A stretch of DNA of 27,934 nucleotides. Source: a virus. Numbering within the stretch: position 1 is the stretch's first letter; every line of letters starts with the position of its first letter. Positions 1,630-20,133 of this stretch are shown in pieces. Below the pieces are notes generated by a model. It made no database searches and was not told the origin of the DNA. It saw only the letters and a list, made by a program, of their open reading frames with translations. The DNA lies in the IMG/VR virus record IMGVR_UViG_3300034402_000011, positions 1-27,934 of that record; one strand, written 5' to 3'. The translations under genes were made by a program, and so were the position numbers.

Positions 1630-1690
1630 GTGCTCTTGGGTAGCGGGCCCGGGTTTAGCGGGAACGGATGCAGGGACAGGCGGGACGTGG

Positions 1691-1696
1691 GAGAAT
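1691..1696 (+). promoter_or_regulatory. Putative -10-like element upstream of 1711-1929
   Basis: GAGAAT lies within GACGTGGGAGAATG, 14 nt before the GTG start at 1711. Nearly the same block, with C for the second G of GAGAAT, precedes the plus-strand gene at 19834. No good -35 hexamer is seen. Confidence 0.3.
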
Positions 1697-1710
1697 GAGC
1701 AGGACGGCTT

Positions 1711-1929
1711 GTGGTGAGCCCATCGTTTCCTCCTTGTAGCCGGGGCGGCGCACGTACCGAGTGGTTCCTCGTCCGGGAAGCCGAGACGGAACTGGCCGCG
1801 GTGCGCGTCGCGCAGTTGTGGGCGTCGGTCGTCGAGGAGCGCAGGCTGCTCGCCATCGCCATGGACGAGACAGCGGCCGCCCTCCGCGCCTTCGCCGAGG
1901 CGTGGAACAGCGGACCGCTCTGGAATTGA
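1711..1929 (+). CDS. Small hypothetical protein on the plus strand, 72 aa
   Basis: From about residue 16 the product is a continuous amphipathic helix (TEWFLVREAETELAAVRVAQ and onward), which is unlike the arginine- and proline-rich shadow frames around it. The N-terminal 15 residues are less convincing, and no alternative ATG or GTG is available after them in frame. The reading direction is opposite to the flanking minus-strand genes. It ends just before a strong stem-loop at 1941-1987. Function is unknown; a small helical binding protein is plausible. It belongs to the set of plus-strand genes sitting in gaps of the structural and lysis block. Confidence 0.45.
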   Translation: MVSPSFPPCSRGGARTEWFLVREAETELAAVRVAQLWASVVEERRLLAIAMDETAAALRAFAEAWNSGPLWN

Positions 1930-1940
1930 ACCGGCGCTAG

Positions 1941-1987
1941 ACGCGACGAGGCCCCGCTCACGAAGGAGCGGGGCCAGTTCGTCGCGT
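1941..1987. terminator. Long stem-loop, probable bidirectional terminator
   Basis: GGCCCCGCTC (1950-1959) pairs perfectly with GAGCGGGGCC (1966-1975) around a 6-nt loop, and the outer arms ACGCGACGA (1941-1949) and TCGTCGCGT (1979-1987) also pair perfectly. The structure lies between a plus-strand gene ending at 1929 and a minus-strand gene ending at 1958, so it can serve both. No T-run follows, which is common for actinobacterial terminators. Confidence 0.7.
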
Positions 1988-2182
1988 CAAGGGCCGTCTA
2001 CCGCCGCGACGCCGGTCCTCGTCCTCGTAGTCGACGTGGGCGGGCGGCAGCCGCCACGGCGCGTACTGACGCCGATAGGCGACCAACGAGAGCCCGAGAG
2101 CGGCGGCACGCTCCTGCTCCCACGCCTCGTCAACCTCGGCCTGCATGGCCCGACCGTAGTCGGCGACGCCTACTCGAAACAC
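1958..2182 (-). CDS. Small basic hypothetical protein, 74 aa
   Basis: The product has an acidic helical middle (MQAEVDEAWEQERAAALGLS), a WRLPP segment and an Arg-rich C-terminus. I recognise no family. The stop lies inside the 1941-1987 hairpin. The GTG at 2182 falls inside the repeat element at 2167-2221; an ATG at 2146 is an alternative that would leave the repeats upstream as a control region and give 62 aa. Neither start has a clear ribosome binding site, so the N-terminus is unsettled. Confidence 0.5.
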   Translation of the reverse strand: MFRVGVADYGRAMQAEVDEAWEQERAAALGLSLVAYRRQYAPWRLPPAHVDYEDEDRRRGGRRPLTRRTGPAPS

Positions 2183-2221
2183 TCTAAACCGAGACTCTAA
2201 ACGAGAAGTTTAGAGTAGGCG
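2167..2221. promoter_or_regulatory. AT-rich array of ACTCTAAAC boxes and inverted repeats (operator-like)
   Basis: Boxes read ACTCGAAAC (2172-2180, one mismatch), ACTCTAAAC (2181-2189), ACTCTAAAC (2194-2202) and the inverted copy GTTTAGAGT (2208-2216). The third and fourth form a perfect palindrome around GAGAA. An outer inverted repeat, CGCCTACTC (2167-2175) with GAGTAGGCG (2213-2221), encloses the group. On the minus strand each full box contains TAGAGT, which fits the TANNNT form of a -10 element. The AT content stands out from the surrounding GC-rich DNA. A repressor operator or autoregulated promoter is the most economical reading; a transcript hairpin is the alternative. Confidence 0.55.
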
Positions 2222-2224
2222 GGT

Positions 2225-2248
2225 TCAGTACCAGTGGTTGCCGCGCAT
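2225..2248 (-). other. Seven-codon mini reading frame with ribosome binding site
   Basis: ATG at 2248 opens MRGNHWY and stops at 2225. A GGGAGG motif precedes it with a 6-nt gap. It lies just after the 54-aa gene and directly before the repeat and hairpin element in the direction of transcription, as a leader peptide might. The size makes chance occurrence likely. Confidence 0.2.
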
Positions 2249-2269
2249 CAACCGCCTCCCTTCCGCCGA

Positions 2270-2434
2270 TCAGTCCTCCGGAACCGCTTCCCATCCCAGC
2301 GCGTCGAGGCCGCCCGCCTCCCGGATGGTGCGGTACACGTCCGCCGACGAGTAGGCGGCACGCGACGGGCAGCAGGGCGGCGAGCCGTAGGCCGAGCGGG
2401 TTCTGCCACAGAACAGGCACATGTCGTCAGCCAC
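2270..2434 (-). CDS. Small cysteine-rich protein, 54 aa, possible zinc knuckle
   Basis: The frame beginning at GTG 2434 encodes MADDMCLFCGRTRSAYGSPP followed by CC and an acidic helical end (VYRTIREAGGLDALGWEAVP). The CxxC near residues 6-9 and the CC pair near 21-22 could bind a metal. GGAGG with a 5-nt gap precedes the GTG; an ATG four codons later is the alternative start. It follows the 154-aa membrane protein by 10 nt. The role is unknown. Confidence 0.55.
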   Translation of the reverse strand: MADDMCLFCGRTRSAYGSPPCCPSRAAYSSADVYRTIREAGGLDALGWEAVPED

Positions 2435-2444
2435 GACAGCCTCC

Positions 2445-2909
2445 TCAACCTCCCGGTGGCGTCGGCGTCGGACACAGCAAGTCGGCCGCCAGATAGTCCT
2501 CAGCCGCCTGCTGCAACGGGACAGCGTCGCCGATCAGCTTGTCGGCCCGGTCCACCAGCGCCACCACATCGGCGTCCGCCGCGTCCGCCCGGTCAGCGAC
2601 GATCCTCACGATGCTCGCGATCAGGAAGGAGTTCCCCGCCGTCTGACGGGCGTTCAACGCCCCCACCTCGCGGGCCAGCTCCGACACGCACTCCCGGTTC
2701 TCGGCGACCGCCACCGTGTACGCCTGCTCACGGCGGGCCTGCCGGTCCCGGGCCTGAGTCGCCCGGAGATTCACCACCACCACCCCGCCCACCGCGAGCA
2801 GAAGGACGATGGCGACGGCGAGGACGGCGACGGTGAGGTGCCGCCAGAACCGCTCCTCCCGAAGCTCGTCCGTGGCGTCGGCGACCGCCCGGATCACGGG
2901 GTCAGCCAT
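2445..2909 (-). CDS. Single-pass membrane protein, 154 aa
   Basis: A short cytoplasmic-type N-terminus (MADPVIRAVADATDELREER) is followed by one strong transmembrane segment at about residues 24-47 (VAVLAVAIVLLLAVGGVVVV) and then a long, helical, mostly charged domain ending in a Pro-rich tail. The ATG at 2909 overlaps the end of the preceding 54-aa gene by 8 nt, which supports this start over the upstream in-frame ATG. It lies downstream of the amidase with other small membrane and coiled-coil proteins, so a lysis role (spanin-like or holin accessory) is possible. No lipobox is present. Function is an inference from position. Confidence 0.62.
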   Translation of the reverse strand: MADPVIRAVADATDELREERFWRHLTVAVLAVAIVLLLAVGGVVVVNLRATQARDRQARREQAYTVAVAENRECVSELAREVGALNARQTAGNSFLIASIVRIVADRADAADADVVALVDRADKLIGDAVPLQQAAEDYLAADLLCPTPTPPGG

Positions 2910-3066
2910 CTCGGCCTCGGTCAGCCTCCGTCTGCTGTCGCTCCGCCCGTTCCAGCCGCTCACGGTGCTCCTCGACCGCCCTCTGATGCTCGTCCAACAC
3001 CCGGCAGAACGCCGCCTCCAACCGGTCCAACCGGTCCGGCCGCCGCGACTGCCACGGCCACCTCAC
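2902..3066 (-). CDS. Small coiled-coil protein, 54 aa
   Basis: The GTG start overlaps the TGA of the upstream membrane protein as GTGA. The product is Arg- and Glu-rich and almost wholly predicted to be a coiled coil (RLDRLEAAFCRVLDEHQRAV and onward). There is no membrane segment. Small coiled-coil proteins of this kind sit beside holins in many actinophages, but I cannot name a family. Its end overlaps the start of the next membrane protein, so the three genes 3063-3347, 2902-3066 and 2445-2909 are tightly coupled. Confidence 0.5.
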   Translation of the reverse strand: MRWPWQSRRPDRLDRLEAAFCRVLDEHQRAVEEHRERLERAERQQTEADRGRDG

Positions 3067-3347
3067 CGGTCCTCCAGCCGCCGCTCCGCCCGCTCCAAGA
3101 AGAAGATGAGCCGGGCCACCTGCTCCGGGGAAGGAAGCGAAGTGACCCGCTCGAGGACTTTCGACGACGCCGCCAGCGCCGCTGTCGACTCGGACAACGC
3201 GGGAAGCGCCTGCTCCAACTGCTTCGCGGCCCGCTCCCGTTCCTCGCGCAGCTCCTTGCGCTGGTCGAAGAACAGCCAGAGCAGCAGCGCCAACGGCAGC
3301 GCAGCCGGCCCATAGAAGGCGACGAGGGCCGCCCAGTCGAACGACAA
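3063..3347 (-). CDS. Holin-like small membrane protein with coiled coil, 94 aa
   Basis: One transmembrane segment at about residues 6-27 (ALVAFYGPAALPLALLLWLF) is followed by a charged coiled coil (KELREERERAAKQLEQ) and a helical end. This layout, N-terminal membrane helix plus cytoplasmic coiled coil of about 90 aa, is typical of class III-like or BhlA-type phage holins and of other lysis accessory proteins. The start is TTG at 3347; a TGA two codons upstream in the same frame excludes a longer form. It lies two genes after the amidase, which makes it the best positional holin candidate in the window. The weak start may keep expression low, which suits a lysis protein, though that is inference. 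Confidence 0.6.
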   Translation of the reverse strand: MSFDWAALVAFYGPAALPLALLLWLFFDQRKELREERERAAKQLEQALPALSESTAALAASSKVLERVTSLPSPEQVARLIFFLERAERRLEDR

Positions 3348-3404
3348 CAGTCACCGTCGCTTCCCGTGGTTGTCGGCCGATCGGCCCACGTCACCTCCAC
3401 GCCG

Positions 3405-3536
3405 TCACGTATCCGGATGGTCGGCGGCGGCTCTGTCTTGTCGGGTGGGCACGCGCTCGGCGTACTCACTACGGTCGTCCATCTCCGGTTCCCTCTCAGC
3501 CAGGGGATCGGGGTACAGGCCGGGGCGTCTGTTCAC
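3405..3536 (-). CDS. Small hydrophilic hypothetical protein, 43 aa
   Basis: GTG at 3536 opens MNRRPGLYPDPLAEREPEMD and a further 23 polar residues. AAGGAGG lies 16 nt upstream, which is longer than usual; an internal ATG (codon 19) preceded by GAGAGG is an alternative. The stretch 3348-3404 after it holds no convincing gene. Support is modest. Confidence 0.35.
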   Translation of the reverse strand: MNRRPGLYPDPLAEREPEMDDRSEYAERVPTRQDRAAADHPDT

Positions 3537-3557
3537 GCAGGCGTCCCGGCCGCCTCC

Positions 3558-3761
3558 TTATTGCGTGTGGCCCCGCCGGTGGAACAGGTCGAGGTAGTCG
3601 GCGAGCACGTCGACGGTCGACTTGCCGTGCTCGATTCCGACCGACGCGCACGACGCCCGCAGGCCCGGCTCACGCAGACGCGCGAGGCAGGCGTCGCAGT
3701 CCGGCCACTGGCCGCCGAAGCCGTCGTCGTACCAGCGGAGCGCCTTCGTGGCCGTGGGCAT
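3558..3761 (-). CDS. Small cysteine-containing hypothetical protein, 67 aa
   Basis: The ATG at 3761 overlaps the TGA of the amidase gene (TGATG), so the two are probably translated together. Visible features are a WYDDGFGGQWPDCDACLARL segment with CxxC and a helical C-terminus (VDVLADYLDLFHRRG). Metal binding is possible from the cysteines. It does not resemble a holin. Function is unknown; a GTG one codon upstream is an equivalent start. Confidence 0.55.
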   Translation of the reverse strand: MPTATKALRWYDDGFGGQWPDCDACLARLREPGLRASCASVGIEHGKSTVDVLADYLDLFHRRGHTQ

Positions 3762-4684
3762 CACGCTGCCGGCACGAACTCCGGCGGGTCGCCGAACACC
3801 GACGGATCGCCGCCGGCTGAACGGAACGACGCCAGACCCTCGGCGCGCTCATGCAGGATCGCGTCGCGCTGCGGCCCCGGCGGCGTCTTGATGAGGTCGA
3901 TGTCGGCGGCGGCGATCTTCGCGCTGGCGGCGTTGCGGCGGGACAGGTTCGTCTCGGCCGCCGAGGCGGGGTCGGCGGCGAGCGCAGCCTTGACCTTGTC
4001 CTCGACGACCTGGGCGATCTGCTCGATCGTGATACCGGCCAAGGGGTCCTCCTCCTCGTTCGGGTTGACGCTCAGGTACGGCTCGGCGGCGGTGAAGTCG
4101 CCGGGGTCGCGGTGGGTGTTCTCGGTGACGTGCTCGTGGCCGCAGATGCCGTCCCAAGCGCGCCACTCGTCGGGGCTGAACCGGCGCGCCGCGGGGAGGT
4201 CCGGGTACTTCGCCCAGCCCTGCGGCGGGAACCTGAGAGTGCAGTAGCCGTGGTCGATGCACCACCACACCAGCCGGCGAAGCGTCACCTTCTGGGCGTC
4301 GGTGAGGCCCGCCCAGCCGCCGGAGGCGACGCCGACGATCTCGACCTGCACGACGTTCCAGCGGTTCGTCTCGACACCGCCCGGCGGGTTCAGGAGCGCC
4401 CGGCTGGTCCGCCTCGCGGAGCAGTGGACGTAGAGGGTGCCGTCACGGTCGAGGGTCCACGTTGGGAAGTTCGGGTGGCCGAACCCGTCGTAGGTGGTGG
4501 CGCCGTTGTTGATGTCCTCGCGGAGGGTCGGGTGGTACCAGAGGCTTTCGGTGGTGTGGAGCACGAGCCGGTTCTTGATGCCCGGCATGTCGGCGCCCGT
4601 GAGGGACAGCGAGGCGAGGTCGAGGACGGCCCACGGCGGGAACTCGTCGGCCGGGAACCCGGCCTGCTCGGCGGTTCGGCTCAT
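3761..4684 (-). CDS. Endolysin, N-acetylmuramoyl-L-alanine amidase (Amidase_2/PGRP type)
   Basis: This enzyme cuts the bond between muramic acid and L-alanine in peptidoglycan to lyse the host. Motifs fit the zinc amidase family: RLVLHTTES with His43, the VQVEIVG core strand near residue 113, and GHEHVTENTHRDPGDF near residues 182-197, where His183 and Asp193 are the likely other zinc ligands. The first 30 residues are a linker with no signal peptide, so a holin would be needed for export. After residue 205 come a Glu-rich linker and a helical C-terminal region of about 90 aa with no recognised wall-binding repeat. The ATG at 4684 overlaps the preceding TGA as ATGA, which decides the start over a longer frame. 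The 307-aa length is usual for a modular phage lysin. Confidence 0.88.
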   Translation of the reverse strand: MSRTAEQAGFPADEFPPWAVLDLASLSLTGADMPGIKNRLVLHTTESLWYHPTLREDINNGATTYDGFGHPNFPTWTLDRDGTLYVHCSARRTSRALLNPPGGVETNRWNVVQVEIVGVASGGWAGLTDAQKVTLRRLVWWCIDHGYCTLRFPPQGWAKYPDLPAARRFSPDEWRAWDGICGHEHVTENTHRDPGDFTAAEPYLSVNPNEEEDPLAGITIEQIAQVVEDKVKAALAADPASAAETNLSRRNAASAKIAAADIDLIKTPPGPQRDAILHERAEGLASFRSAGGDPSVFGDPPEFVPAA

Positions 4685-4860
4685 GCGCGCATCTCCTGCT
4701 CCCAGCGGCGGCACCACTCGTCCACCGCCTCCCCGTCGAACGGCTCACCCTTTGGCTCAACCCGACCCGCCAACCACCGAGCAGCCGACTCCACGCCCCG
4801 CAGAACGTCCGCCAACACAGCGCGGGCGACCATCAGCAGGGCACGCTCCACGGGGGTCAC
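4681..4860 (-). CDS. Small hypothetical protein upstream of the endolysin, 59 aa
   Basis: GTG at 4860 overlaps the stop of the HTH gene as GTGA, and its own stop overlaps the endolysin start as ATGA, so it is a tightly coupled link in the cassette. The product is one long amphipathic helix (VERALLMVARAVLADVLRGV), followed by a second helix with EWCRRWEQEM. No transmembrane segment. It is typical of short phage proteins of unknown role. Confidence 0.6.
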   Translation of the reverse strand: MTPVERALLMVARAVLADVLRGVESAARWLAGRVEPKGEPFDGEAVDEWCRRWEQEMRA

Positions 4861-5300
4861 GCACTCTCGCTAACCCGCCGCGAAACAGGATCATCGGATG
4901 CAGGGCGCGCCGACCCCCACCCCGCACGCGGCTTCGTCTTTCCCGACACGATGTTCCGGGCGTACGTCTCGGACACGTCGAACCGAGCGGCCAGCAGCCG
5001 GAACGGCACCCCCTTGCCGTGCAGGCGACGCATCTCGTCAGCCACCTCCACCGTCACACCCGGCGAGCGCGGCTTCCGCTTCGACGCACGCGTCGGCTCA
5101 GGTGGGCACCACGACTCGATCTCGGGCCGGCCGTCGCGGAAGTCGGCGAGCAGCCGGTACAGGTCACCGTCCGACAGGTGGTCGTAGCGGCCGCCGTGCA
5201 CCTTGCGGAGCCGGTCGTCGCACCACGCCGCCACCTCCCGTTGTGGGAGGCCGGCGAGCTTGTCGGTGAGGTGCGGGTTGCCAGGGTTCGGGTCGGGCAC
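4857..5300 (-). CDS. Helix-turn-helix DNA-binding protein, 147 aa
   Basis: Residues about 98-122 (VPFRLLAARFDVSETYARNI then VSGKTK) form a clear helix-turn-helix of the kind seen in HNH-associated and resolvase-like phage proteins. A basic segment (RASKRKPRSPG) precedes it, and the N-terminal 65 residues are a separate helical domain with one Trp-Cys. There are no HNH or nuclease residues. The GTG at 5300 has GGAGG with a 7-nt gap and is preferred over the longer open frame that runs into the hairpin region. As the first gene of the lysis and accessory unit it could regulate that unit, but targets are not known. Confidence 0.65.
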   Translation of the reverse strand: MPDPNPGNPHLTDKLAGLPQREVAAWCDDRLRKVHGGRYDHLSDGDLYRLLADFRDGRPEIESWCPPEPTRASKRKPRSPGVTVEVADEMRRLHGKGVPFRLLAARFDVSETYARNIVSGKTKPRAGWGSARPASDDPVSRRVSESA

Positions 5301-5385
5301 CGCCCAACCTCCGGGGTGCGACGGGCCGCCCTGACGGCAGCGACCGTCGCCCCAACCCCGCTCCGCGGCGAGGATGCAGGAGGCG

Positions 5386-5391
5386 TAGAAT
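5386..5391 (+). promoter_or_regulatory. Putative -10 element (TAGAAT), plus strand
   Basis: TAGAAT followed by G matches the actinobacterial TANNNT form and resembles the hexamers before the other plus-strand genes (TAGGATG, TACGATG). No -35 is evident. It lies 53 nt before the ATG at 5445. Confidence 0.3.
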
Positions 5392-5444
5392 GGTGGCCGT
5401 CCCGGGAGTGGAGACCCGGACCCCGCTAACAAAGGAGAGCCAGC

Positions 5445-5624
5445 ATGGAAGCCCCGGCCCTTCTCCACAGTGGGGCCGGGGGCACCACCCCCGTCGTATC
5501 CGACCGCGGCGTCGGCCTCTCTGATCTGACTGTCGGATGGGCGCAGGGGAGGCTCGCCGCTTCCCTACCCGGCCGCCGGCCCGGCGTGTCCCTCCAAACA
5601 GGGGCCGCCCGGCGCACCCTCTGA
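5445..5624 (+). CDS. Doubtful small plus-strand reading frame, 59 aa
   Basis: The ATG has an excellent ribosome binding site, AAAGGAG with a 7-nt gap, and a TAGAAT hexamer upstream. The translated product (MEAPALLHSGAGGTTPVVSD and onward) is low in predicted structure and its composition is not distinctly protein-like. A strong hairpin begins 7 nt after the start codon and another covers the stop, both of which would hinder translation. It may be a small gene, or the site may be a structured intergenic or small-RNA region. The remaining stretch 5301-5444 contains no other convincing gene. Confidence 0.33.
   Translation: MEAPALLHSGAGGTTPVVSDRGVGLSDLTVGWAQGRLAASLPGRRPGVSLQTGAARRTL
5452..5481. 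terminator. GC-rich stem-loop in the intergenic region
   Basis: CCCCGGCCC (5452-5460) pairs with GGGCCGGGG (5473-5481) around a 12-nt loop. On the minus strand it follows the stronger hairpin at 5601-5637 and precedes the HTH gene, so the two may act in series to separate the tail operon from the lysis unit. Confidence 0.45.
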
Positions 5625-5637
5625 GCCGGGCGGCCCC
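5601..5637 (-). terminator. Strong terminator after the tail fibre gene
   Basis: A perfect 13-bp stem, GGGGCCGCCCGGC (5601-5613) with GCCGGGCGGCCCC (5625-5637), has an 11-nt loop. Read on the minus strand it lies 36 nt after the fibre gene and is followed by TGTTTGG. This marks the likely end of the structural operon. Confidence 0.72.
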
Positions 5638-5672
5638 AGCCGGAACCTACGGCGGCATCCGGAAGCGACGGC

Positions 5673-6473
5673 CTACACGACCACCCAGACAGCGCCGTCC
5701 CACCGTTTCAGCGGCTTCGACTCCCACGCCGACCCGGTCCACACCATGAACGGTGTCGCCACCCACGCCGTACCATCCCACCGCTTCAACGCGGTGACCG
5801 TCACGGCGTCCAGGGAGCCGGTGGCGCCGACGGCGACCGCAGCCTTCCCAGCGAACGTCGTGAGTCGGGTCGCCGTCCCGGTCGCACCCGCGGCGGCGAC
5901 GGCTGAGGCAGCGAACCGGCGTCGCAACCGGAAGATCGCAGCCACCCCGGAGTCGGCGCCGTTCGCTGTGCCTCGGAGGCCTGCTGTGCGGGCGACTGTC
6001 GCCTTCGCGGCCCCCGCCGCGGGTCCACGGCTCGACAGTCCCCGCAGGAGGGTCGGCGCCGCCCTGGCCGCCCCCGCCGTCGCCGCAGCCCCGGACAGCC
6101 CGGTAGAGCGACGCAGCGTCCCCGCGGCGCCGCCAGCGGCCCCAGCGGTCGCTGACAGGCCTCTCGTCGCCACGAGGGACCCCCCCGACGACCCGGCCGC
6201 CCCGGCTGTGGCGACGACCGACCGGACGACGGACAGCGACCCGGACCCTCCCGACGCCGAACCCGACGAGCCGGACAGGTCGACAACGACTGCGGGCTGT
6301 TCGATGATGCTCGACGGCGCCGGAGCCGGGCCGGGCGGGATGACGAGCTCCTGCGGGGTATCCGCCGGGAGGATCTGGCCGTGGCCGGCCGCCCCCGCCG
6401 TGGCGCCCATGTTCGCCGACCCGGTGCGGAGGAACGTCGCAGCCGGGGCGCCGCCTAGGCGCTGATGCGGCAC
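5673..6473 (-). CDS. Repeat-rich tail fibre or tail tip protein, 266 aa
   Basis: The centre (about residues 62-222) consists of some eight diverged repeats of about 20 aa rich in Ala, Gly, Ser and Thr, such as ATRGLSATAGAAGGAAGTLR, typical of elongated phage or surface fibre shafts. The C-terminus carries three short aromatic repeats, LKRWDGTAWVATP, FMVWTGSAWESKP and LKRWDGAVWVVV, of the WDG type seen at the distal ends of phage tail proteins. It is the last gene of the tail module, right before a strong terminator, where host-recognition fibres are common. GTG at 6473 lies 3 nt after the preceding stop. A role in adsorption is inferred from repeats and position; receptor unknown. Confidence 0.7.
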   Translation of the reverse strand: MPHQRLGGAPAATFLRTGSANMGATAGAAGHGQILPADTPQELVIPPGPAPAPSSIIEQPAVVVDLSGSSGSASGGSGSLSVVRSVVATAGAAGSSGGSLVATRGLSATAGAAGGAAGTLRRSTGLSGAAATAGAARAAPTLLRGLSSRGPAAGAAKATVARTAGLRGTANGADSGVAAIFRLRRRFAASAVAAAGATGTATRLTTFAGKAAVAVGATGSLDAVTVTALKRWDGTAWVATPFMVWTGSAWESKPLKRWDGAVWVVV

Positions 6474-6476
6474 GGT

Positions 6477-6944
6477 CTACGCCTGGATCTCGGACCAGAC
6501 CACCGTCGTGAAGATCTGGGCGGCACCGGCGATCACCGGCGTGACGAGGATGACCGACGTGGAGCGGGGCACGTCCAACCCCTCAGGGAACACCCAGTGG
6601 AGGCCGGCGCCGATCGCGGCGGGGAGCGCCTGCCGGCGGAGCCGGCTCGCCGCGGTGAAGGTCGGGGCGGCGGTGAACGCGTTGGAGAAGACGCCGGTGA
6701 GACCCGAGTTCGCTATGTTCGGGTTCTCCTTGTTCGCCGCCCCGAGCGTCGGCGCGTTCGACCCGCCGGTCCCCTGAGCGGTCGCCCGGTGAAGCTCGAC
6801 GTTCGTCGCTGTCGCCGCGCCGAGCGTGACGATCAGCTCGTGGATTTTCGCGACGACTGACGCGCCGTTGCGGAACTCGAAGAACGGGGTGTCGAGCGCC
6901 GGGGCGGCGGACGTGAGCGTCGCTGCTGAGTAGCGGTCGGCCAT
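6477..6944 (-). CDS. Minor tail or virion protein, 155 aa
   Basis: The product starts MADRYSAATLTSAAPALDTP and is rich in Ala, Thr and Asn with short beta-prone segments (SVVAKIHELIVTLGAATATN). Such proteins occur next to tail fibre genes in actinophages and in phage-derived elements, but I cannot give a defined family. The ATG at 6944 overlaps the previous TGA (TGATG), which decides the start. It lies between a Gp80-like protein and the repeat fibre, so a tail-tip or fibre-accessory role is probable. Confidence 0.6.
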   Translation of the reverse strand: MADRYSAATLTSAAPALDTPFFEFRNGASVVAKIHELIVTLGAATATNVELHRATAQGTGGSNAPTLGAANKENPNIANSGLTGVFSNAFTAAPTFTAASRLRRQALPAAIGAGLHWVFPEGLDVPRSTSVILVTPVIAGAAQIFTTVVWSEIQA

Positions 6945-7369: not shown

Positions 7370-7370
7370 G

Positions 7371-7529
7371 TCAGCCGTCCGTGAAGTGGTCGTCGCAGAG
7401 CTGCGCGAGTTCCGACGGGGGGAGGTCCGAGCGGCGGGTGCCTGCGTCGAGCCGCTTGAGCGGCGATCCGGGCGGGTCGCCGTCGCCGGCCACCATCACC
7501 GGCTTGGCGAGCACCTTCGGCTTGGTCAT
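7371..7529 (-). CDS. Small hypothetical protein, 52 aa
   Basis: MTKPKVLAKPVMVAGDGDPP leads into a helical end (LPPSELAQLCDDHFTDG). It starts at ATG 7529, 11 nt after the preceding gene, and stops 1 nt before the Gp80-like gene. Short soluble proteins of this kind are common between tail-tip genes; no function is evident. Confidence 0.55.
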   Translation of the reverse strand: MTKPKVLAKPVMVAGDGDPPGSPLKRLDAGTRRSDLPPSELAQLCDDHFTDG

Positions 7530-7540
7530 GGCTGCTCCTA

Positions 7541-9033: not shown

Positions 9034-9051
9034 CAGAGGACCGTGTCGTCG

Positions 9052-9057
9052 TAGGAT
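9052..9057 (+). promoter_or_regulatory. Putative -10 element (TAGGAT) for a leaderless gene
   Basis: TAGGAT ends 6 nt before the ATG at 9064, the spacing expected if transcription begins at or next to the start codon. No ribosome binding site lies in between. The -35 region is not recognisable. Confidence 0.45.
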
Positions 9058-9063
9058 GGGCGC

Positions 9064-9375
9064 ATGGCTGAGCCGGTTGGTCCGCGTCGCGAGGGTGAGA
9101 CGGTCGAGGAGTGGCAGCGACGGGTCGGGGAGGCGTGGGGCGACGTGGTCGCCGCCCAGCCGCCTCTACGGGAGCGGCCGTTCTGGCCGGCGGACACGCA
9201 CGACCACGGACTCGCCGTCGACGTGCTGACCGAGACCGCTGAGGCCAACGCCGCCGACATGCGGGACTTCGTGAAGAGCTGGCAGTTCCCCGGCGTCGAG
9301 AGCGCCGAAGAGGCCGGGCGGCGCATCGGTGAACTGATCAGAAGCGGACGCTTCGGCGAGGCGTCCGCCGAGTGA
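9064..9375 (+). CDS. Plus-strand hypothetical protein, 103 aa (cargo gene)
   Basis: The product has no membrane segment; its first half is Trp- and Arg-rich (EEWQRRVGEAWGDVVAAQPP) and the second half is two acidic helices (LAVDVLTETAEANAADMRDF, SAEEAGRRIGELIRSGRFGE). It runs against the flanking tail genes, with its own TAGGAT element and probable leaderless start. Its stop is overlapped by the next plus-strand gene (GTGA), so the two form a small operon. No known domain is visible. As an independent unit inserted among tail genes it fits the moron pattern, a gene useful to the host or phage but not needed for assembly. Confidence 0.62.
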   Translation: MAEPVGPRREGETVEEWQRRVGEAWGDVVAAQPPLRERPFWPADTHDHGLAVDVLTETAEANAADMRDFVKSWQFPGVESAEEAGRRIGELIRSGRFGEASAE

Positions 9376-9533
9376 GCGACCTGCACCCCCCGTTCGTTGC
9401 CGCCTTCGACCAGTACCAGGCAGCCGTGCGGGACACTGGTGGCCCCACGATCCGCTCGTCGTACCGCACGCAGATGAGCGTCGCCGTGCGCTGGATCGCG
9501 CAGTGGCTCTCCCGTGGCGGCTCGCTGAATTAG
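9372..9533 (+). CDS. Plus-strand small protein, 53 aa, second gene of the pair
   Basis: GTG at 9372 overlaps the preceding TGA (GTGA). The product, beginning MSDLHPPFVAAFDQYQAAVR, has two helices with Trp and Arg (SVAVRWIAQWLSRG). It stops 5 nt before the stop codon of the opposite-strand 1472-aa tail gene, so the two units converge with almost no spacer and no obvious terminator. Function unknown. Confidence 0.55.
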   Translation: MSDLHPPFVAAFDQYQAAVRDTGGPTIRSSYRTQMSVAVRWIAQWLSRGGSLN

Positions 9534-9538
9534 ACCCA

Positions 9539-13957: not shown

Positions 13958-16900
13958 CAGCGCGGCCTCCTCGTGAACCCGCGGCGCATCCGGTTCACCC
14001 CGTCGACCATGACCTCGGACGCCACCACCCGCGACTCGACCCGGACGATATCGGTGATCTCCCGGTCCCCCATGAACACCCGCGCTTCGACGTTCACGTT
14101 GACGTTCGGCATCCCGACCGGCTCCGGCGCGCCCGTCCCGTTGTACGCCAACGACAGGCCCTGAGGGAGCCAGCCGCCCTGGTCGTAGGAGAACGGGGTG
14201 AACGATCGCGGCATCCCGACGACCTCCATGTGCCACGGCTCCCGCGGCACCGGCCAGTGAACACCGAGCGCGTAGCCGACCGGCCGGTCATAGGCCGTCG
14301 AATCGGGGGCGTGGTCGATCGCGAGACCCAGCTGGTGGTTCGACGACCCCGGCGGGGCGACCAACGTCAGCGACGGGTCGCCGGCCAGGTACCTCGCGTA
14401 CAGGGCGGCCTGCTCGGCGTACGACCGGTAGCCGGACACGATGTAGTGCCCGCCGCCGGTCAGCGCGTTCCACAGGTTGAACTTGCCGAGCAGGATCGGG
14501 TTGAGTCCACCGGCGTCACCGGCGAACGACGTGGCCGCCAACGTCCGGTCGATCCACGCCCCCACCTCGCCGCGCATGTACTCCCAGCCGGCCTTGTAGC
14601 CGGTCTCCAACGGGAACGCGAGCGGGTCGAACTCGGGGGTCGGCGGCAGGTCGGCGGACGACATGAACATGTTCGCGAAGTCGCCGGTCAGCACCCCACC
14701 CGTCGCGAACCGGCGCACCCGGAACTCGTCGGGCACCCGGTCCTTCGGGAGGACCGCCATGTCGTACCAGTCGGCCGCCACGTTGAGGATGGCTCGGCCA
14801 CGGGACCGGTCGCCGAACTTGGGAAGGTACGCCTCCCCACCGGTCTCGGGCTCGTTCCACAGCCGGACCACCCGGCCGTCGCCGATCTGCGGCGAATGAT
14901 CTTCGAACACCGCCCCCCGAGCGTTGGCGTACACCGTCACCCGTGATGCCCCGACCGCACCCAAGAGAGGGTTGATCCCTTCTTGGAGTTCAAGGCCCGC
15001 CGCACGCGTCACGTCGCGGACGATCCCAGGGGTCACACCGAGCCGGGTAGCGATCGCCCACACCGTCGCCGCGGCGCCGAGGTCGGCTGCGGCAGTCATG
15101 ATCCGCATGCCGGTCGTCTGCTCGGCCCCGGCGTTCGCCATGATCGTACGAACCTCGGCCGGCGTCAGACCCAGTTCGTCGGCGACCGACCGGTAGGTGG
15201 CGTGTGCCCCTTGACGGGCGATCTCGTTCATCACCCCCATCTGCAACCCGAGCAAGCCGTTCGCCTCCGAGATGATCCGCTGCACCTCCTGCGGCGTGAC
15301 CCCGGTCTCCTCAGAAATCGCTTCGGCAGTGGCTCGACCGCCCTGTCGGCCATAGGCAGCCATCACCTGCATCTCCGTGTCCACGGCTCCGGCTGCGTTC
15401 GCCATCTGCGGCTTGACCACGTCGTTGACGAACGCCTGCAATTCGGCGTCGGACGCCTTCGCCATTTCAGCGATCAGACCGGCCGCTTCCGGACCCCACC
15501 CGGCCATCTCGGACGCGACATCCTCGCCGGCCCGCATGGCGATGATCCCGAGGTTCGTGCGCCACTCGGTCTGCGCCTGCACCTGCTCGCGCAGCTTGTC
15601 CATGTACTCGTCGATCGCGGGCACCGCCCGGTCGCGGAAGTCCTCCCACGACGTGGCCGCCTTGTCAGCACCGTCGTGGGTGGCGTTCCACCACGAGATC
15701 ACCTCGTTGGCGTTGTCCGACAACTCCTGAGCGTTGTCCTGCAACAGGTCGTTCCACGTGCCGACCGGGTCGAGGAACGAGTCGTTGATCCCCTCCAACG
15801 ACTCCAGCCACTTCTCATGCGCGTCCCGGGCCGCCTTCGCCGCCTCCGTCTCGCCGCCCAACTGCTCCTCAAGGTCGCCCACGTCCTCGCCGAGATCGCC
15901 GGTAGCGTCGCTCAGATGGCCGGTCGTCTCCACGCTGGCCTGCTGCTCCGCCTTCACGGCCTGCAACGCGGGGAGCAGGTCCCGGTAGGCGCCCGACAGG
16001 TCGATGTCGTACCGGTCGGCGAGTTCGCGTACCGCCTCCTCGGACAGGCCGAGAGCGGCGGTGAGGCCGGGCATCGACTCCTTCCAGCCGGTCAGGTTCC
16101 TCTGGACGACTTCGGCTTCGGCGCCGGCCATCCGCATGCGGAACACAAGCCGGTCGAGGGCTTCGCCCATCTCGTTGGCTTCGCGCTGCGACTCGGAGGT
16201 CTCCCACCACGGCTGGATGTTCCAGAAGCCGGGGTCGGCGGCCTGCTGCGCTTCCCGCACCTGCTCGCTGAGACGCTCGACGGCGGTGCCGAGGTCTTCC
16301 ATGTTCGTGAGGTCGAGGTCGGCGGTCGCTGACGCGACGACTTCGGCGACTTCGGCGTCGATCCGACCGAGTTCGGCGGCGACGACGCCGAGTCCCACTG
16401 CGGCAATCGCCGCGGCCGGCCCGACCTTGCCGAGAACGGTGTTCGCCGTGGCGCCAGCGGTGCCCATCGCGGCAAGCGCCTCTCGGGCGGCGTCGACCTT
16501 CGGCTTCAAGTAGGCGATGCCGCCGCCGAGGAACAGGAGGCCGCCGCCGAGGCCGGACACCGCGGTGGCGGTCGTCTGGATGGGGGCGGGGAGGCCGCCG
16601 AGGCCGTTGACGAGGTCGGTGGCCGTCTGAACCATCGTCCGCATCACGCCGTTCGCCTGCGAACCGGCGCCGATCAGGGTCGTCTCCAGCGACCCGCGCA
16701 GCGACTCCAGGTCGCCGGCCAGGTTGTCGAGCTTCTCGGCGGCGAGGTCCGCCGCGTACCCCTGGTCGGTGACGTTCTCGGTCCACCGGCCGACCGCCTC
16801 GGCGCCGCCCTCCATGAGGATCGTCGCGCCACGGACCGCGTCGGCGCCGAACAGGGTGGAGAGGGCGGTAGCGCGCTGCTCGTCGGACAGGCTCCCGAGC

Positions 16901-17733
16901 CGGTCCTGGAGCTGCTCGGCGACGCTCGCGATCCCGGTGAAAGCGCCCTCCGAGTCGAAGAACTGGAGGTTCAGTTCGTGCATCATCGACGCCGCCTCGA
17001 CCGACTGCGGCACGAGGCGTTGCAGCATCGTCTTGAACGACGTGCCGGCGTCGGACCCGTTGAGGCCCGCCTGGGAGAACATGGCGAGGATGCCGCTCGT
17101 CTCCTCGATGGTCAGCCCGAACTGGTCGGCGACAAGGCCCGACTGCTGGAGGGCCATGCCGATGTCCTCCACGTCGGCGGCGCTCTTGTTCGCCGCGGCG
17201 GCGAGGGTGTCGGCGATGCGGGGCACATCGGAACCGGCGAGGCCGAACGTGTTCATCCCCGCCGCGGCGATCTCGGCGGCCCTGGCGAGGCTCAGGTTCC
17301 CGGCGGCGGCGAGGTTCAGCGCGCCGGTCAGGCCGCCGCCGAGGATGTCCGCGGTGGACACGCCGGCCTTCGCCAGTTCGGTGGCGCCCTGAGCGGCCTC
17401 ACCGGCGGAGAACACGGTCGCCGCGCCGGCCTCCAGCACCGCGGCCCGCAGCCGGCCCATTTCCGACGACGACGCCCCCGATACGGCGCCCAGCTCGGAA
17501 AGCTGCCGCTCGAACTGGGCGGACGCGTTCACCGCCAACCCGAACCCGGCGACCATCGCCCCGCCGACGACCATCGCCCCCTGGCCGAGTTGTTGCATGT
17601 TGGCGCGGGACTTGGTGACCGCCTGCTCCTGCTCGGTGCGGAACCGTCGGGTCGTGTCCGACGACCGCTTCATCCCCTGCTCGTAGTTGGAGGTGTCGGC
17701 CCGCAACGCGATGTCGATGTTTCTCCATGCCAT
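13957..17733 (-). CDS. Tape measure protein with C-terminal VanY/M15 peptidase-like domain, 1258 aa
   Basis: The tape measure sets tail length and is ejected into the host envelope at infection. Residues 1-350 match the phage tail tape measure family (TP901 type: FERQLSELGAVSGASSSEMG, ATELAKAGVSTADILGG, LTIEETSGILAMFSQAG). Hydrophobic stretches lie at about 49-68, 388-410 and 438-456. Residues 788-919 contain three 44-aa tandem repeats. Near the C-terminus SGYRSYAEQAALYARYLAG, SSNHQLGLAIDH and EPWHME form a complete M15B/VanY signature: His1133, Asp1140 and His1168 as zinc ligands and Glu1165 as catalytic base. It could open peptidoglycan cross-links during entry. At about 0.15 nm per residue the length implies a tail near 190 nm. 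A perfect anti-Shine-Dalgarno match precedes the ATG. Confidence 0.92.
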   Translation of the reverse strand: MAWRNIDIALRADTSNYEQGMKRSSDTTRRFRTEQEQAVTKSRANMQQLGQGAMVVGGAMVAGFGLAVNASAQFERQLSELGAVSGASSSEMGRLRAAVLEAGAATVFSAGEAAQGATELAKAGVSTADILGGGLTGALNLAAAGNLSLARAAEIAAAGMNTFGLAGSDVPRIADTLAAAANKSAADVEDIGMALQQSGLVADQFGLTIEETSGILAMFSQAGLNGSDAGTSFKTMLQRLVPQSVEAASMMHELNLQFFDSEGAFTGIASVAEQLQDRLGSLSDEQRATALSTLFGADAVRGATILMEGGAEAVGRWTENVTDQGYAADLAAEKLDNLAGDLESLRGSLETTLIGAGSQANGVMRTMVQTATDLVNGLGGLPAPIQTTATAVSGLGGGLLFLGGGIAYLKPKVDAAREALAAMGTAGATANTVLGKVGPAAAIAAVGLGVVAAELGRIDAEVAEVVASATADLDLTNMEDLGTAVERLSEQVREAQQAADPGFWNIQPWWETSESQREANEMGEALDRLVFRMRMAGAEAEVVQRNLTGWKESMPGLTAALGLSEEAVRELADRYDIDLSGAYRDLLPALQAVKAEQQASVETTGHLSDATGDLGEDVGDLEEQLGGETEAAKAARDAHEKWLESLEGINDSFLDPVGTWNDLLQDNAQELSDNANEVISWWNATHDGADKAATSWEDFRDRAVPAIDEYMDKLREQVQAQTEWRTNLGIIAMRAGEDVASEMAGWGPEAAGLIAEMAKASDAELQAFVNDVVKPQMANAAGAVDTEMQVMAAYGRQGGRATAEAISEETGVTPQEVQRIISEANGLLGLQMGVMNEIARQGAHATYRSVADELGLTPAEVRTIMANAGAEQTTGMRIMTAAADLGAAATVWAIATRLGVTPGIVRDVTRAAGLELQEGINPLLGAVGASRVTVYANARGAVFEDHSPQIGDGRVVRLWNEPETGGEAYLPKFGDRSRGRAILNVAADWYDMAVLPKDRVPDEFRVRRFATGGVLTGDFANMFMSSADLPPTPEFDPLAFPLETGYKAGWEYMRGEVGAWIDRTLAATSFAGDAGGLNPILLGKFNLWNALTGGGHYIVSGYRSYAEQAALYARYLAGDPSLTLVAPPGSSNHQLGLAIDHAPDSTAYDRPVGYALGVHWPVPREPWHMEVVGMPRSFTPFSYDQGGWLPQGLSLAYNGTGAPEPVGMPNVNVNVEARVFMGDREITDIVRVESRVVASEVMVDGVNRMRRGFTRRPR
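14977..15372 (-). repeat. Three tandem 44-aa (132-bp) repeats in the tape measure
   Basis: Units start at MQVMAAYGRQGGRATAEAIS, MGVMNEIARQGAHATYRSVA and MRIMTAAADLGAAATVWAIA, and each contains a G-[VL]-T-P-x-x-V turn 24-30 residues in. All are exactly 44 residues, four times the 11-residue spacing often seen in tape measure repeats. At DNA level they have diverged, so they are old duplications. Confidence 0.7.
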
Positions 17734-17740
17734 TTCGGGT

Positions 17741-17752
17741 GATCACCTCCTT
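17741..17752 (-). promoter_or_regulatory. Extended ribosome binding site for the tape measure
   Basis: AAGGAGGTGATC, a full-length match to the 16S rRNA 3' end complement, lies 7 nt before the ATG of the tape measure. It is much longer than other sites in the window and should give very strong initiation after the 214-bp gap. Confidence 0.7.
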
Positions 17753-17782
17753 CGCGTATCTGCGAGGGTGCTGCGAGCCTCT

Positions 17783-17788
17783 TACGAT
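17783..17788 (+). promoter_or_regulatory. Putative -10 element (TACGAT) for a leaderless gene
   Basis: TACGAT ends 8 nt before GTG 17797, with no ribosome binding site between. The arrangement repeats that at 9052 and 19821. Confidence 0.4.
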
Positions 17789-17796
17789 GCGTGTCC

Positions 17797-17943
17797 GTGT
17801 CGAACCGTCGAGCGCCGTCCACCAACCCGTGGCTGGTGGTGATCGTCTGCCTGGCCGTGGTGATCGCCGCCGCGATGTGGCAGCGGGCGCAGACCGACGC
17901 ACGGGTTCACGACGAGGTGTGCGAGATCACCTCCGACTGCTGA
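17797..17943 (+). CDS. Plus-strand small membrane protein, 48 aa
   Basis: MSNRRAPSTNPWLVVIVCLA leads into a single transmembrane helix (about residues 12-27, ending IAAAMW) and a charged tail with two cysteines (VCEITSDC). It is encoded on the strand opposite to all flanking tail genes, filling the gap between the chaperone extension (ends 17948) and the tape measure (starts 17733). A GTG two codons upstream is an alternative start. The N-in, cysteine-bearing outside tail is what the positive-inside rule suggests. It may be a cargo protein acting at the host membrane, for instance in exclusion of other phages; that is inference. Confidence 0.6.
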   Translation: MSNRRAPSTNPWLVVIVCLAVVIAAAMWQRAQTDARVHDEVCEITSDC

Positions 17944-17947
17944 ACGG

Positions 17948-18882
17948 CTACTCGTCGTCCTCCGGGCGGCGGCGTCTCAGGAACACCTTCGGCGGCACCC
18001 TTCGCTCCTCGTCCCGCAGTTCCTCGGCGAGCGCGTAACGGAGGCGGCACCCCTCGCATTCGACGGCGTCGGCGACGAACGGGGGGTCCGGCAGAGGCCG
18101 CCCGGTGACCGGGTCGCGGAGCATGTCGTCGTGCGCGCTACACGACGGGCAGCGGGTCCGCTTGTCGATCAGCCAGGCGAGCGACTTCGCCCGCTCAAGC
18201 TCCGGCCAGTCAAGCCACTCCCGATGCTGGATGCGCAGTTCGCCGAAACAGAGGTCGAGTTCGAGGCGAAAGTCGTCGTCCTCCCTCAGTCTTTTCCCAG
18301 GTCACCGACACTGGTGTTGACCTTGGACAGCGCCTCGGCGTTCTGGAACAGCAGGTCGAGGTCACCTTCCGGCCACGCCCGAGACGCCCACATCTGCTCC
18401 GCCTCAGCCGGATGAAGCGAGTCGGCAACCTCGCCGTCGCCGAACTCGATACGCGCCACAGCGGCCGCCACAAGGGCGGCCGGGAACGTGTCCGTGTTGT
18501 ATCGCAGCGGAGCCGGGACCGCCTTGCCGTTCCCGACGGCGGCGAGAGCCTCGGCCATCGCCCGCTTGTACTCGGCCTTCTGCTGGTCAGTCGGCGGGTG
18601 CTCCGCCTCCAACGCGTCCCAGACCTTCGGGTCGACCGGCTCGAGAGTAAACCGGATCAGCCGGCCCTTCAACATCGCCTGGAAGGCCGCCAACTCGGCT
18701 TCGGCGTCGGCGACCTCAACCGGGTTGACCGGAACCCCTCGCGGCGGGTTCTGCGCCCGCAGGACCCGTCCCTGAAGGACGCGCAGACGGTCAGCGTCCG
18801 CCGGGTTCTCGGCGAACGCGACGATCTCCTGGCGGACCGGCCGGTTGAGGAGGCGGGCGACGACCTCGTCGCGCCCGCTCAC
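17948..18882 (-). CDS. Tail assembly chaperone, long -1 frameshift product (gpG-T like), 311 aa
   Basis: Ribosomes that slip back one base on G GGA AAA (18292-18298) continue past the short product's stop and add 114 residues, from RLREDDDFRLELDL to RRRRPEDDE. The extension contains two CxxC pairs, RCPSC and CEGC, about 31 residues apart, a zinc-ribbon layout. In siphoviruses the long and short chaperone forms bind the tape measure and recruit the tail tube protein, and the tape measure gene follows here as expected. The extension frame has no good start of its own and no other assignment. The product is 197 aa of the common part plus 114 aa. Confidence 0.85.
18286..18882 (-). CDS. Tail assembly chaperone, short product (gpG like), 198 aa
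   Basis: This protein sits between the major tail protein and the tape measure, the standard place for the tail assembly chaperone. It is mostly helical and charged, with VARLLNRPVRQEIVAFAENP near the start and LIRFTLEPVDPKVWDALEAE in the middle; the latter motif recurs in actinophage chaperones. The GTG at 18882 overlaps the major tail protein stop (GTGA). It ends in SVGDLGKD, with the slippery heptamer coding for the last three codons before the stop. Confidence 0.85.
   Translation of the reverse strand: MSGRDEVVARLLNRPVRQEIVAFAENPADADRLRVLQGRVLRAQNPPRGVPVNPVEVADAEAELAAFQAMLKGRLIRFTLEPVDPKVWDALEAEHPPTDQQKAEYKRAMAEALAAVGNGKAVPAPLRYNTDTFPAALVAAAVARIEFGDGEVADSLHPAEAEQMWASRAWPEGDLDLLFQNAEALSKVNTSVGDLGKD
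18292..18298 (-). promoter_or_regulatory. -1 ribosomal frameshift site, GGGAAAA
   Basis: On the minus strand the zero-frame codons are CTG GGA AAA GAC TGA, so the heptamer is in the canonical X XXY YYZ register as G GGA AAA. Slippage leads into AGA CTG AGG and an open frame of 114 codons. I see no clear downstream pseudoknot by eye. Confidence 0.85.
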
Positions 18883-19376
18883 GCTGCGACGGTGCCGTCG
18901 AGGGTCGGGACCTGCGGCGCGAAGTTCACCCGGAACTGCGCCGGCCCGTTCAGCGCTCGCAGCTTCGTCCGCGTCGAGATGCGCGCCGGCCAGGTGTCGA
19001 TGTCGTTGCCGGCGGCGATCGCTGCGGACGGCGACGCGGCCTCCACGAACGACACCCACACCGACAGGCCCGGGTCCGACGCGTCGTAGATCACCGTGCT
19101 CGCCGTGCCCCGCCAGAACTCCAGCGACGACTCGGCGTAGGTCTCCTCACCGGGGATCGTCCCTGTGCGGTAGGAGAGCGCGTCGGGGGTCGGGTCGTTG
19201 GCGACGTTGACCTCCCAGCCGTTGATCCCGTCGGCGGCGAGCGCCTCGTCGTTCTCGACGCCGCGGAGGTCGACACCGGCGGCCAACTCGGCGATGGTCG
19301 GGGCTTCCAGGTCGGCGGGGGCGACGGTCATCATGATCACCCGGAGGCGGCCGTCGCGGAGCGAGTAGCGGGACAT
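18879..19376 (-). CDS. Major tail (tube) protein, 165 aa
   Basis: The beta-rich sequence with IAELAAGVDLRGVENDEALA, INGWEVNVANDPTPDALSYR, the ETYAESSLEFWRG segment and VYDASDPG-type turns followed by WVSFVEA matches the actinophage tail tube fold. It lies immediately before the chaperone and tape measure, the canonical order. The ATG at 19376 is 3 nt after the previous stop. Its product would polymerise as rings around the tape measure. Confidence 0.82.
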   Translation of the reverse strand: MSRYSLRDGRLRVIMMTVAPADLEAPTIAELAAGVDLRGVENDEALAADGINGWEVNVANDPTPDALSYRTGTIPGEETYAESSLEFWRGTASTVIYDASDPGLSVWVSFVEAASPSAAIAAGNDIDTWPARISTRTKLRALNGPAQFRVNFAPQVPTLDGTVAA

Positions 19377-19379
19377 GGG

Positions 19380-19649
19380 TCAGCCCTCCTTGGGGCGATC
19401 GTCGGGCAGGGACGGCATCGGCGGGGGGTAGTCGACGGCTTCGACGAGAGCCTCGGCGACGGCCGCCTTGGTGGAGCCGCGGGTCCGGGTCACCCCGGCG
19501 GCTGCGGCTGCCACTTCCAGCTGGTCGCGCTTGAGGTCGCCGACTTCGACGAAGCCTCGGGACTGGTACTTGGTGGTGAACGAGGATCGGAGCGTCCGGA
19601 AGGTGCGCTCCGGGTTGTCGGGGTGGGCTATGACGACGGTGTCGGCCAT
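19380..19649 (-). CDS. Small protein with SAP-like helical motif, 89 aa
   Basis: After a beta-prone start (TVVIAHPDNPERTFRTLRSS) the segment DLKRDQLEVAAAAAGVTRTR followed by GSTKAAVAEALVEA has the look of a SAP or Rho N-terminal-type helix-extended loop-helix, often fused to or beside phage tail and head proteins. The ATG at 19649 overlaps the preceding TGA. It directly precedes the major tail protein, so a structural or assembly role is likely. Confidence 0.6.
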   Translation of the reverse strand: MADTVVIAHPDNPERTFRTLRSSFTTKYQSRGFVEVGDLKRDQLEVAAAAAGVTRTRGSTKAAVAEALVEAVDYPPPMPSLPDDRPKEG

Positions 19650-19789
19650 CAGGAGTCCTCGGCGATGCGCTCAGCATCGAGTTCGTCAGCGCACGCCTGG
19701 GCGTGCTTGGCGATGATGCGCAGCGTCCGAACGAGGCGCGTCGTGTCGCTCCCCACTCGGATCGACACATCGGTGTTGGTGTAGGACAC
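19649..19789 (-). CDS. Small helical hypothetical protein, 46 aa
   Basis: GTG at 19789 has GGAGG with a 6-nt gap; an ATG five codons upstream is possible but would overlap that site. The product runs SYTNTDVSIRVGSDTTRLVR then a helix (TLRIIAKHAQACADELDAER). It starts back-to-back with the plus-strand gene at 19834, 44 nt away. No function is visible. Confidence 0.55.
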   Translation of the reverse strand: MSYTNTDVSIRVGSDTTRLVRTLRIIAKHAQACADELDAERIAEDS

Positions 19790-19820
19790 GACGGGCCTCC
19801 TCATGGACGGTCAGACGTGG

Positions 19821-19826
19821 GACAAT
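19821..19826 (+). promoter_or_regulatory. Putative -10-like element before 19834
   Basis: GACAAT within GACGTGGGACAATG ends 7 nt before GTG 19834. The same block with one change occurs at 1684-1697 upstream of another plus-strand gene. Confidence 0.35.
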
Positions 19827-19833
19827 GGAGGAC

Positions 19834-20133
19834 GTGTGGGACGACGAGACGCCCCGGTGGGAGTTGGAGGCACGACTGGTGACGGCGCTCAGCCTCCACG
19901 CACGGGTGTCATGGGACAACGAGCCGACGTACTGCTGGGAGTGCATGCAGGCTTGGCCGTGCGACACGGTCCGCGCCCTGAACGGCGTTCCGTTGTCCGA
20001 GCCGCGCCTAGCGGTTAGGCCGGGGTCGTGCGCAGCACGTAGCGGTCGCCGATGGAGACCAGCGCCCCCTCACGGATCGGAGCGCCCTGCGCGTACTCGT
20101 CCCGCTCGAACACCACCACCCCATCGACGGTGA
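19834..20133 (+). CDS. Plus-strand cysteine-containing protein, up to 99 aa
   Basis: The first 60 residues look like a real soluble domain: MWDDETPRWELEARLVTALS, then a Trp- and Cys-rich part with YCWECMQAWPC that may bind zinc. After about residue 61 the frame runs antisense through the end of the minus-strand tail terminator gene (20015 onward) and becomes Arg- and Pro-rich, as a shadow would. Either the original stop was lost or the long tail is real. ATG 19825, three codons upstream in frame, is an alternative that overlaps the -10-like hexamer. It lies alone in a gap between neck and tail genes. Confidence 0.5.
   Translation: MWDDETPRWELEARLVTALSLHARVSWDNEPTYCWECMQAWPCDTVRALNGVPLSEPRLAVRPGSCAARSGRRWRPAPPHGSERPARTRPARTPPPHRR

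Follow-up and report, generated by a model that had tools for sequence, protein, structure and literature searches.

Reverse-oriented gene islands in the virion operon of a likely actinophage resemble self-promoted morons

Introduction

A minus-strand virion operon interrupted by gaps that hold plus-strand reading frames raises the question of whether these frames are genes, how they might be expressed against the direction of the operon, and how they came to be there. We studied this in the 27,934-base IMG/VR virus record IMGVR_UViG_3300034402_000011, the whole of which is called the window hereafter. Read leftwards from the right end, its minus strand encodes the portal, the protease/major capsid protein, connector genes, the tail terminator, the major tail protein, the tail assembly chaperone, the tape measure protein (TMP), minor tail genes, and an amidase-type endolysin. 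No near match to its DNA was found among deposited phages or plasmids. The host is likely a high-GC actinobacterium, because the portal protein is about 46%–50% identical to the portals of Rhodococcus, Gordonia, and Mycobacterium phages.

Some other features of the window were noted. At the left end, the plus-strand ORF 1-720 is convergent with the late block and sigma-factor-like (phrog_1740, E 1e-7), with sub-threshold matches to the Pfam sigma regions 2 and 4. The tail-assembly-chaperone frame at 18286-18882 is followed by another of its kind that lacks an obvious start (17948-18285), a pair arrangement in which some phages use a programmed frameshift. The AT-rich stretch 2158-2221 has GTTTAGAGT direct and inverted repeats within a CGCCTACTC...GAGTAGGCG palindrome. 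Of the 10 TANNNT boxes on the minus strand of the window, 5 lie here, accompanied by an ATG of the leaderless type at 2146 on that strand; the stretch is likely a regulated minus-strand promoter. A plus-strand gene call at 27354-27557 was discarded as an apparent shadow of the small membrane-protein frame upstream of the portal.

Results

Gaps, frames, and coding signal

An independent gene call based on codon usage places gaps in the minus-strand block at 1630-1957, 5301-5672, 9034-9538, 17734-17947, and 19790-20014, to the base where the initial annotation had them. Two more gaps of at least 150 bp, outside its list (2183-2444 and 3348-3557), hold small minus-strand frames and not plus islands; the first seems empty and contains a 54-residue minus-strand frame with cysteine pairs (2270-2434). 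The islands in the five gaps (I1 to I5, with I3 made of I3a and I3b) have the following features:

1691..1696, plus strand: -10-like box GAGAAT of I1, part of the GTGGGA[C/G]AATG shared with I5
1711..1929, plus strand: I1, up to 72 aa, from GTG 1711 or 1714; codon-usage z 3.0–3.9
1932..1996, no strand: terminator-like hairpin after I1, with inverted repeats; -54.6 kcal/mol, z -7.3
5386..5391, plus strand: -10-like box TAGAAT of I2, of the TASRATG form
5445..5624, plus strand: I2 frame, 59 aa, AAAGGAG upstream of ATG 5445; codon-usage z 1.8, p 0.04
5601..5637, no strand: hairpin at the end of I2, 13-bp G+C stem; -38 kcal/mol, z -4.4
9052..9057, plus strand: -10-like box TAGGAT of I3, 6 nt before ATG 9064; flanking sequence conserved in L091 (see below) upstream of the homologous gene
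9064..9375, plus strand: I3a, 103-aa soluble protein; codon-usage z 5.3, GC3 0.85
9372..9533, plus strand: I3b, 53 aa, no family match; codon-usage z 3.8
17783..17788, plus strand: -10-like box TACGAT of I4, 8 nt before GTG 17797
17797..17943, plus strand: I4, 48 aa, apparently with one membrane-spanning segment; codon-usage z 3.4, GC3 0.92
19821..19826, plus strand: -10-like box GACAAT of I5, 7 nt before GTG 19834
19834..20133, plus strand: I5 frame, coding-like to about 20013 (codon-usage z 2.6 for 19834-20013), with the cysteine motif CWECMQAWPC

The presence of a plus-strand frame in each gap, put forward in the initial annotation, is by itself weak evidence because shuffled gaps, being G+C-rich, yield equally long frames: the longest plus frame per gap is not longer than expected by chance (p 0.19–0.82), and we dropped frame length as proof of the islands. 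Codon usage, scored against dinucleotide-preserving shuffles, is more telling. By this measure, I1, I3a, I3b, and I4 are protein-coding, I5 is fairly so, and I2 is marginal. The last 119 bp of the I5 frame are antisense to the tail-terminator gene and have non-coding codon usage (z -3.7 for 20014-20130), so the protein actually made may be shorter, or the frame may have suffered damage.

The islands occupy precise positions between virion genes. I3a sits in reverse orientation between two minor tail genes; its stop is overlapped by the start codon of I3b (GTGA), whose own stop and that of a convergent minus-strand tail gene are 5 bp apart. I4 lies between a tail-assembly-chaperone frame and the tape measure gene. 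The hairpins after I1 and I2 are strong and lack a T run, the former being shared with the convergent minus frame 1958-2182, and no terminator is recognisable after I3, I4, or I5. If I2 is a gene, it is Shine-Dalgarno-led; alternatively, it could be a structured RNA, the region 5396-5660 folding more stably than its shuffles (z -3.15). On the minus strand of the I1 gap (1654-1736), an AAGGAGG ribosome site (AAGGAGGAAACG-ATG) precedes a 22-residue frame starting at ATG 1722, which may encode a leader peptide for the late operon.

Names for the island proteins were sought in Pfam, PHROGs, NCBIfam, and PADLOC and with tblastn against phages, with nothing firm found. I3a has no Pfam, PHROG, NCBIfam, or PADLOC family at threshold, and its AlphaFold model is of low confidence (pLDDT 63, pTM 0.33). 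I5 weakly matches the zinc-finger family phrog_14169 (E 0.008), and I1 matches QslA below threshold (20 bits for a cut-off of 25).

Promoter-like boxes upstream of the islands

The five hexamer blocks described in the initial annotation are all present on the plus strand (GAGAATG at 1691, TAGAATG at 5386, TAGGATG at 9052, TACGATG at 17783, and GACAATG at 19821), and the starts of I3, I4, and I5 do follow them at 6, 8, and 7 nt. The degenerate pattern KASRATG by which the blocks had been described is only mildly enriched (22 copies observed for 14 expected, with 3 of 100 shuffles as high). Since 16 of the 22 copies fall elsewhere than in these gaps, we rejected the exact KASRATG as too loose for a promoter signal. 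Narrower forms are more specific: TASRATG occurs in the window exclusively at I2, I3, and I4, and three of the 21 TANNNT copies on the two strands stand at the heads of the same islands. The check on hexamer frequency set in the initial annotation is passed by these narrower forms, but weakly by the degenerate one. TANNNT-N6-RTG occurs twice in the window, one being the I3 box, and a plus frame of at least 45 codons with such a box, spacing, and start arises in 1.2% and 0.55% of the shuffled I3 and I4 gaps, respectively.

These boxes are of a type known in the presumed hosts. Mycobacterial promoters have a -10 box TANNNT without a conserved -35 (PMC3898074), and in Actinobacteria a TANNNT about 12 bp before the start marks leaderless genes (PMC3160421). 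The first T is 12 nt upstream of the start in I3 and 14 nt in I4, a placement not seen in I1, I2, or I5, and no two-hexamer promoter of the sigma-70 type was matched at the islands. A putative promoter signal is apparent at I2, I3, and I4. The candidate boxes of I1 and I5 (GAGAAT and GACAAT) are weaker, as they are not TANNNT; they belong to a common GTGGGA[C/G]AATG whose sole copies in the window are at 1687 and 19817. The proposed leaderless arrangement suits I3 and I4 well, is less convincing for I5, and is loosely matched by I1, whose start comes 14 nt behind its hexamer; it does not suit the I2 frame, which would be Shine-Dalgarno-led.

Empty sites in related viruses

The sole syntenic relative found, IMGVR_UViG_3300034402_000002 (loci L091 and L172), covers the region from the tail terminator through the minor tail genes. 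It shares the tail terminator, the major tail protein, the chaperone, the tape measure, and both minor tail genes with the window, at 39%–63% amino-acid identity. At the places of the I3, I4, and I5 gaps, it has 2, 3, and 34 nt, respectively, and the flanking genes are intact, so these three islands pass the comparison of presence and absence that the initial annotation had proposed. The window also has an extra minus-strand gene, 19649-19789, between the tail terminator and 19380-19649. The sites of I1 and I2 have no recognisable coverage in any syntenic relative found. Searches for further close relatives, in which the portal, the tape measure protein, minor tail proteins, I3a, and I5 served as queries, gave IMGVR_UViG_3300034402_000002 as the only syntenic one.

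More distant relatives tell the same story. At the I3 junction, before the mt7930 homologue, none of the 59 relatives with a gene called there has a gap above 94 bp; two apparent reverse genes at this place were rejected, both coming from the same miscalled REQ1 genome, whose deposited annotation is continuous. At the junction before TMP, none of 22 relatives has a reverse gene or a gap above 150 bp. At these places, the modules of Shagrat, REQ1, Nesbitt, VWB, and Sbash run along one strand without interruption. Because the sites are empty in L172 and uninterrupted in the more distant relatives, a gain of the islands in the lineage of the window would be the simpler reading.

A displaced homologue of I3a

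I3a is the only island protein with a homologue in the searched collections (76%–80% identity over about 54 residues), so the conservation of the frames among relatives holds for it but not for the others. The homologue is encoded in the same relative (L091:14905-14591, reverse strand), at a different place. There, the I3a promoter block and the first 55 or so codons (about 14926-14750) are again reverse-oriented, behind the lysis genes and adjoining a gene for a TadA-like ATPase, which may belong to host DNA past a prophage end. The promoter block reads GTCGTCGTAGG[A/G]TG, and one substitution and one 1-base indel are the sole differences in the first 59 or so aligned bases. Over 51 aligned codons, the block has 83% nucleotide and 76% four-fold-site identity, and the well-aligned virion genes of the window and L172 have 55%–70% and 40%–52%. 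The conserved block starts at the -10 region and ends near codon 55, beyond which the C-terminal halves are unrelated; the L091 homologue possibly has a frameshift near this point. A search of viral contigs for the DNA pattern of the I3 promoter gave no match.

These data strongly suggest that I3a and its promoter are mobile between sites, as expected if I3 is a moron. At the promoter of the homologue, a palindrome CCTACGACGAC-N7-GTCGTCGTAGG (L091:14930-14976), then followed by the TadA-like ATPase gene, is possibly an operator or a prophage end.

Nested reverse genes in related loci

We fetched about 125 non-redundant related loci by portal or tail-protein similarity. In this set, window excluded, a TANNNT stands 5–8 nt before a start in 8 of 46 nested reverse genes and 14 of 1,289 co-directional ones (Fisher p 2e-7). 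The 46 are an upper bound because the gene caller makes shadow errors (e.g., in L003, L004, and L043), some of which remain after an antisense filter; some of the 46 are also not in virion modules. Since promoters are not expected for co-directional genes within an operon, the enrichment supports self-promotion of reverse genes and does not define a special class.

Three cases are clear examples inside virion modules. L106:6514-6690, a reverse gene with TAGGGT-N6-ATG, has the same position as I4, directly before TMP, but its 58-aa membrane-type peptide is unrelated. L061:7305-7547 is a reverse gene among those after the head-tail connectors (TAAAGT-N6-ATG), and L019:7647-7907 lies ahead of the portal gene. 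Other reverse genes are nested near head or tail genes (L110:756-1076, L144:645-968, and L027:4393-4767); those of L110 and L027 match DUF4429, the latter below the Pfam cut-off, without the TANNNT signal, and that of L144 resembles that of L110. Deposited phages contain no homologues of the L106, L061, and L110 reverse genes.

Discussion

Probable morons with putative promoters of their own

We consider it probable, from the sequence comparisons above, that the islands are self-promoted, reverse-oriented morons, that is, small accessory genes that entered the late operon singly or in pairs. They appear to be mobile cargo and not components of the virion. The evidence is strong for I3, good for I4, and moderate for I5 and I1. 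The initial proposal of morons is partly supported: I3, I4, and I5 are absent from the relative with intact flanks, and the proposal is unproven for I2, whose coding is not established.

On transcription, leaderless translation, lysogenic expression, and function of the islands, we infer the following. A reverse gene needs its own promoter because the late promoter is unusable from the opposite strand, and a host-type -10 box combined with leaderless initiation would be the most compact one. Each island probably has such a box without a recognisable -35; RNA polymerase would start at the start codon or within a few bases of it, giving a leaderless mRNA with no Shine-Dalgarno site. The opposite orientation precludes co-transcription with the late genes. 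In a prophage, where the late operon stays silent, the lysogen could express a reverse gene from a host-type promoter without the virion genes, and late transcription would oppose its expression during lytic growth. By analogy with other phage genes, the islands likely have a lysogenic role in the putative prophage, in which they would protect or modify the host, for instance by superinfection exclusion, defence, or, for I3a/I3b, toxin-antitoxin activity. The last is of first interest because of the GTGA overlap and because leaderless mRNAs predominate among the toxin-antitoxin pairs of M. tuberculosis (PMC3898074).

Other explanations

The plus-strand frames might instead have arisen by chance in gaps that hold control elements of the late operon, such as RNA hairpins, ribosome sites, or processing sites. 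We find this unlikely for the islands as a whole. The chance-like frame lengths agree with it, as do the strong hairpins at 1932-1996 and 5601-5637 and the minus-strand ribosome sites in some gaps (AAGGAGGTGATCACC before TMP in the I4 gap, GAGGAGG before 19789, and AAGGAGGAAACG-ATG), but it leaves unexplained the coding-like codon usage of I1, I3a, I3b, and I4 (z 3.0–5.3), the conservation of I3a as a protein, and the fact that relatives do without a spacer at the I3 and I4 junctions. For I2, it is the leading explanation.

It is quite improbable that the islands are lytic-phase genes (early host-takeover or regulatory genes, or antisense RNAs tuning the late genes, possibly through the sigma-like protein of ORF 1-720): that protein, the GTGGGA[C/G]AATG unique to I1 and I5 in the window, and the antisense end of the I5 frame are in line with such a role, but the most convincing boxes belong to the common TANNNT class of the host, the islands are scattered and differ in sequence, and their absence from relatives with the same late genes argues against a control role.

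A possible wider pattern

Morons are an ordinary kind of gene, and the part worth following is the pattern of leaderless reverse cassettes in actinophage virion modules, where small genes in unlabelled operon gaps are easily overlooked by annotation. If it holds, a reverse frame, a TANNNT 6–8 nt before its start, and an empty site in relatives would find many prophage-expressed genes, and defence, exclusion, and toxin-antitoxin functions would be likely among these uncharacterised genes. A bolder extension, which we advance tentatively and with some doubt, is that the virion operons of actinophages offer recurrent slots for cargo (after the connectors, before TMP, and between large minor tail genes) that take reverse leaderless cassettes of promoter plus gene, in which the promoter and the N-terminal codons travel as a block and the orientation keeps the gene on in the prophage and off late.

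Comparison with known systems

The leaderless TANNNT genes of Actinobacteria (PMC3160421, PMC3898074) resemble I3 and I4, which have the box without a -35 and its first T 12–14 nt before the start; I5 and I1 differ in carrying GACAAT and GAGAAT. The toxin-antitoxin pair gp90/gp91 of Adephagia offers a likeness in a lysogenically expressed small phage gene with a predicted leaderless promoter (PMC11373665), but it is outside the virion operon, and I3a/I3b have no similarity to toxin-antitoxin families in the libraries searched. Two-gene, lysogenically expressed defence units are known in phages from Sbash gp30/gp31 and CarolAnn gp44/gp43 (PMC6426596, PMC6426606). Sbash, whose portal is 45.7% identical to that of the window, has gp30/gp31 with their own promoter beside the late genes, but these come after the virion genes, not within them, and in the same direction. 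The island proteins have no PADLOC defence match up to E 1.

The islands also resemble the morons of P22-like phages (e.g., ant; PMC2629481, PMC3029335), which are inserted between genes contiguous in relatives, are dispensable for morphogenesis, are apparently expressed independently, and differ between phages. The morphogenetic cluster of P22-like phages has them at a single location (PMC2629481). The window differs in that most islands are without a recognisable terminator, and in having several one- or two-gene units at several places of the virion module, all in reverse orientation and some with leaderless-type signals.
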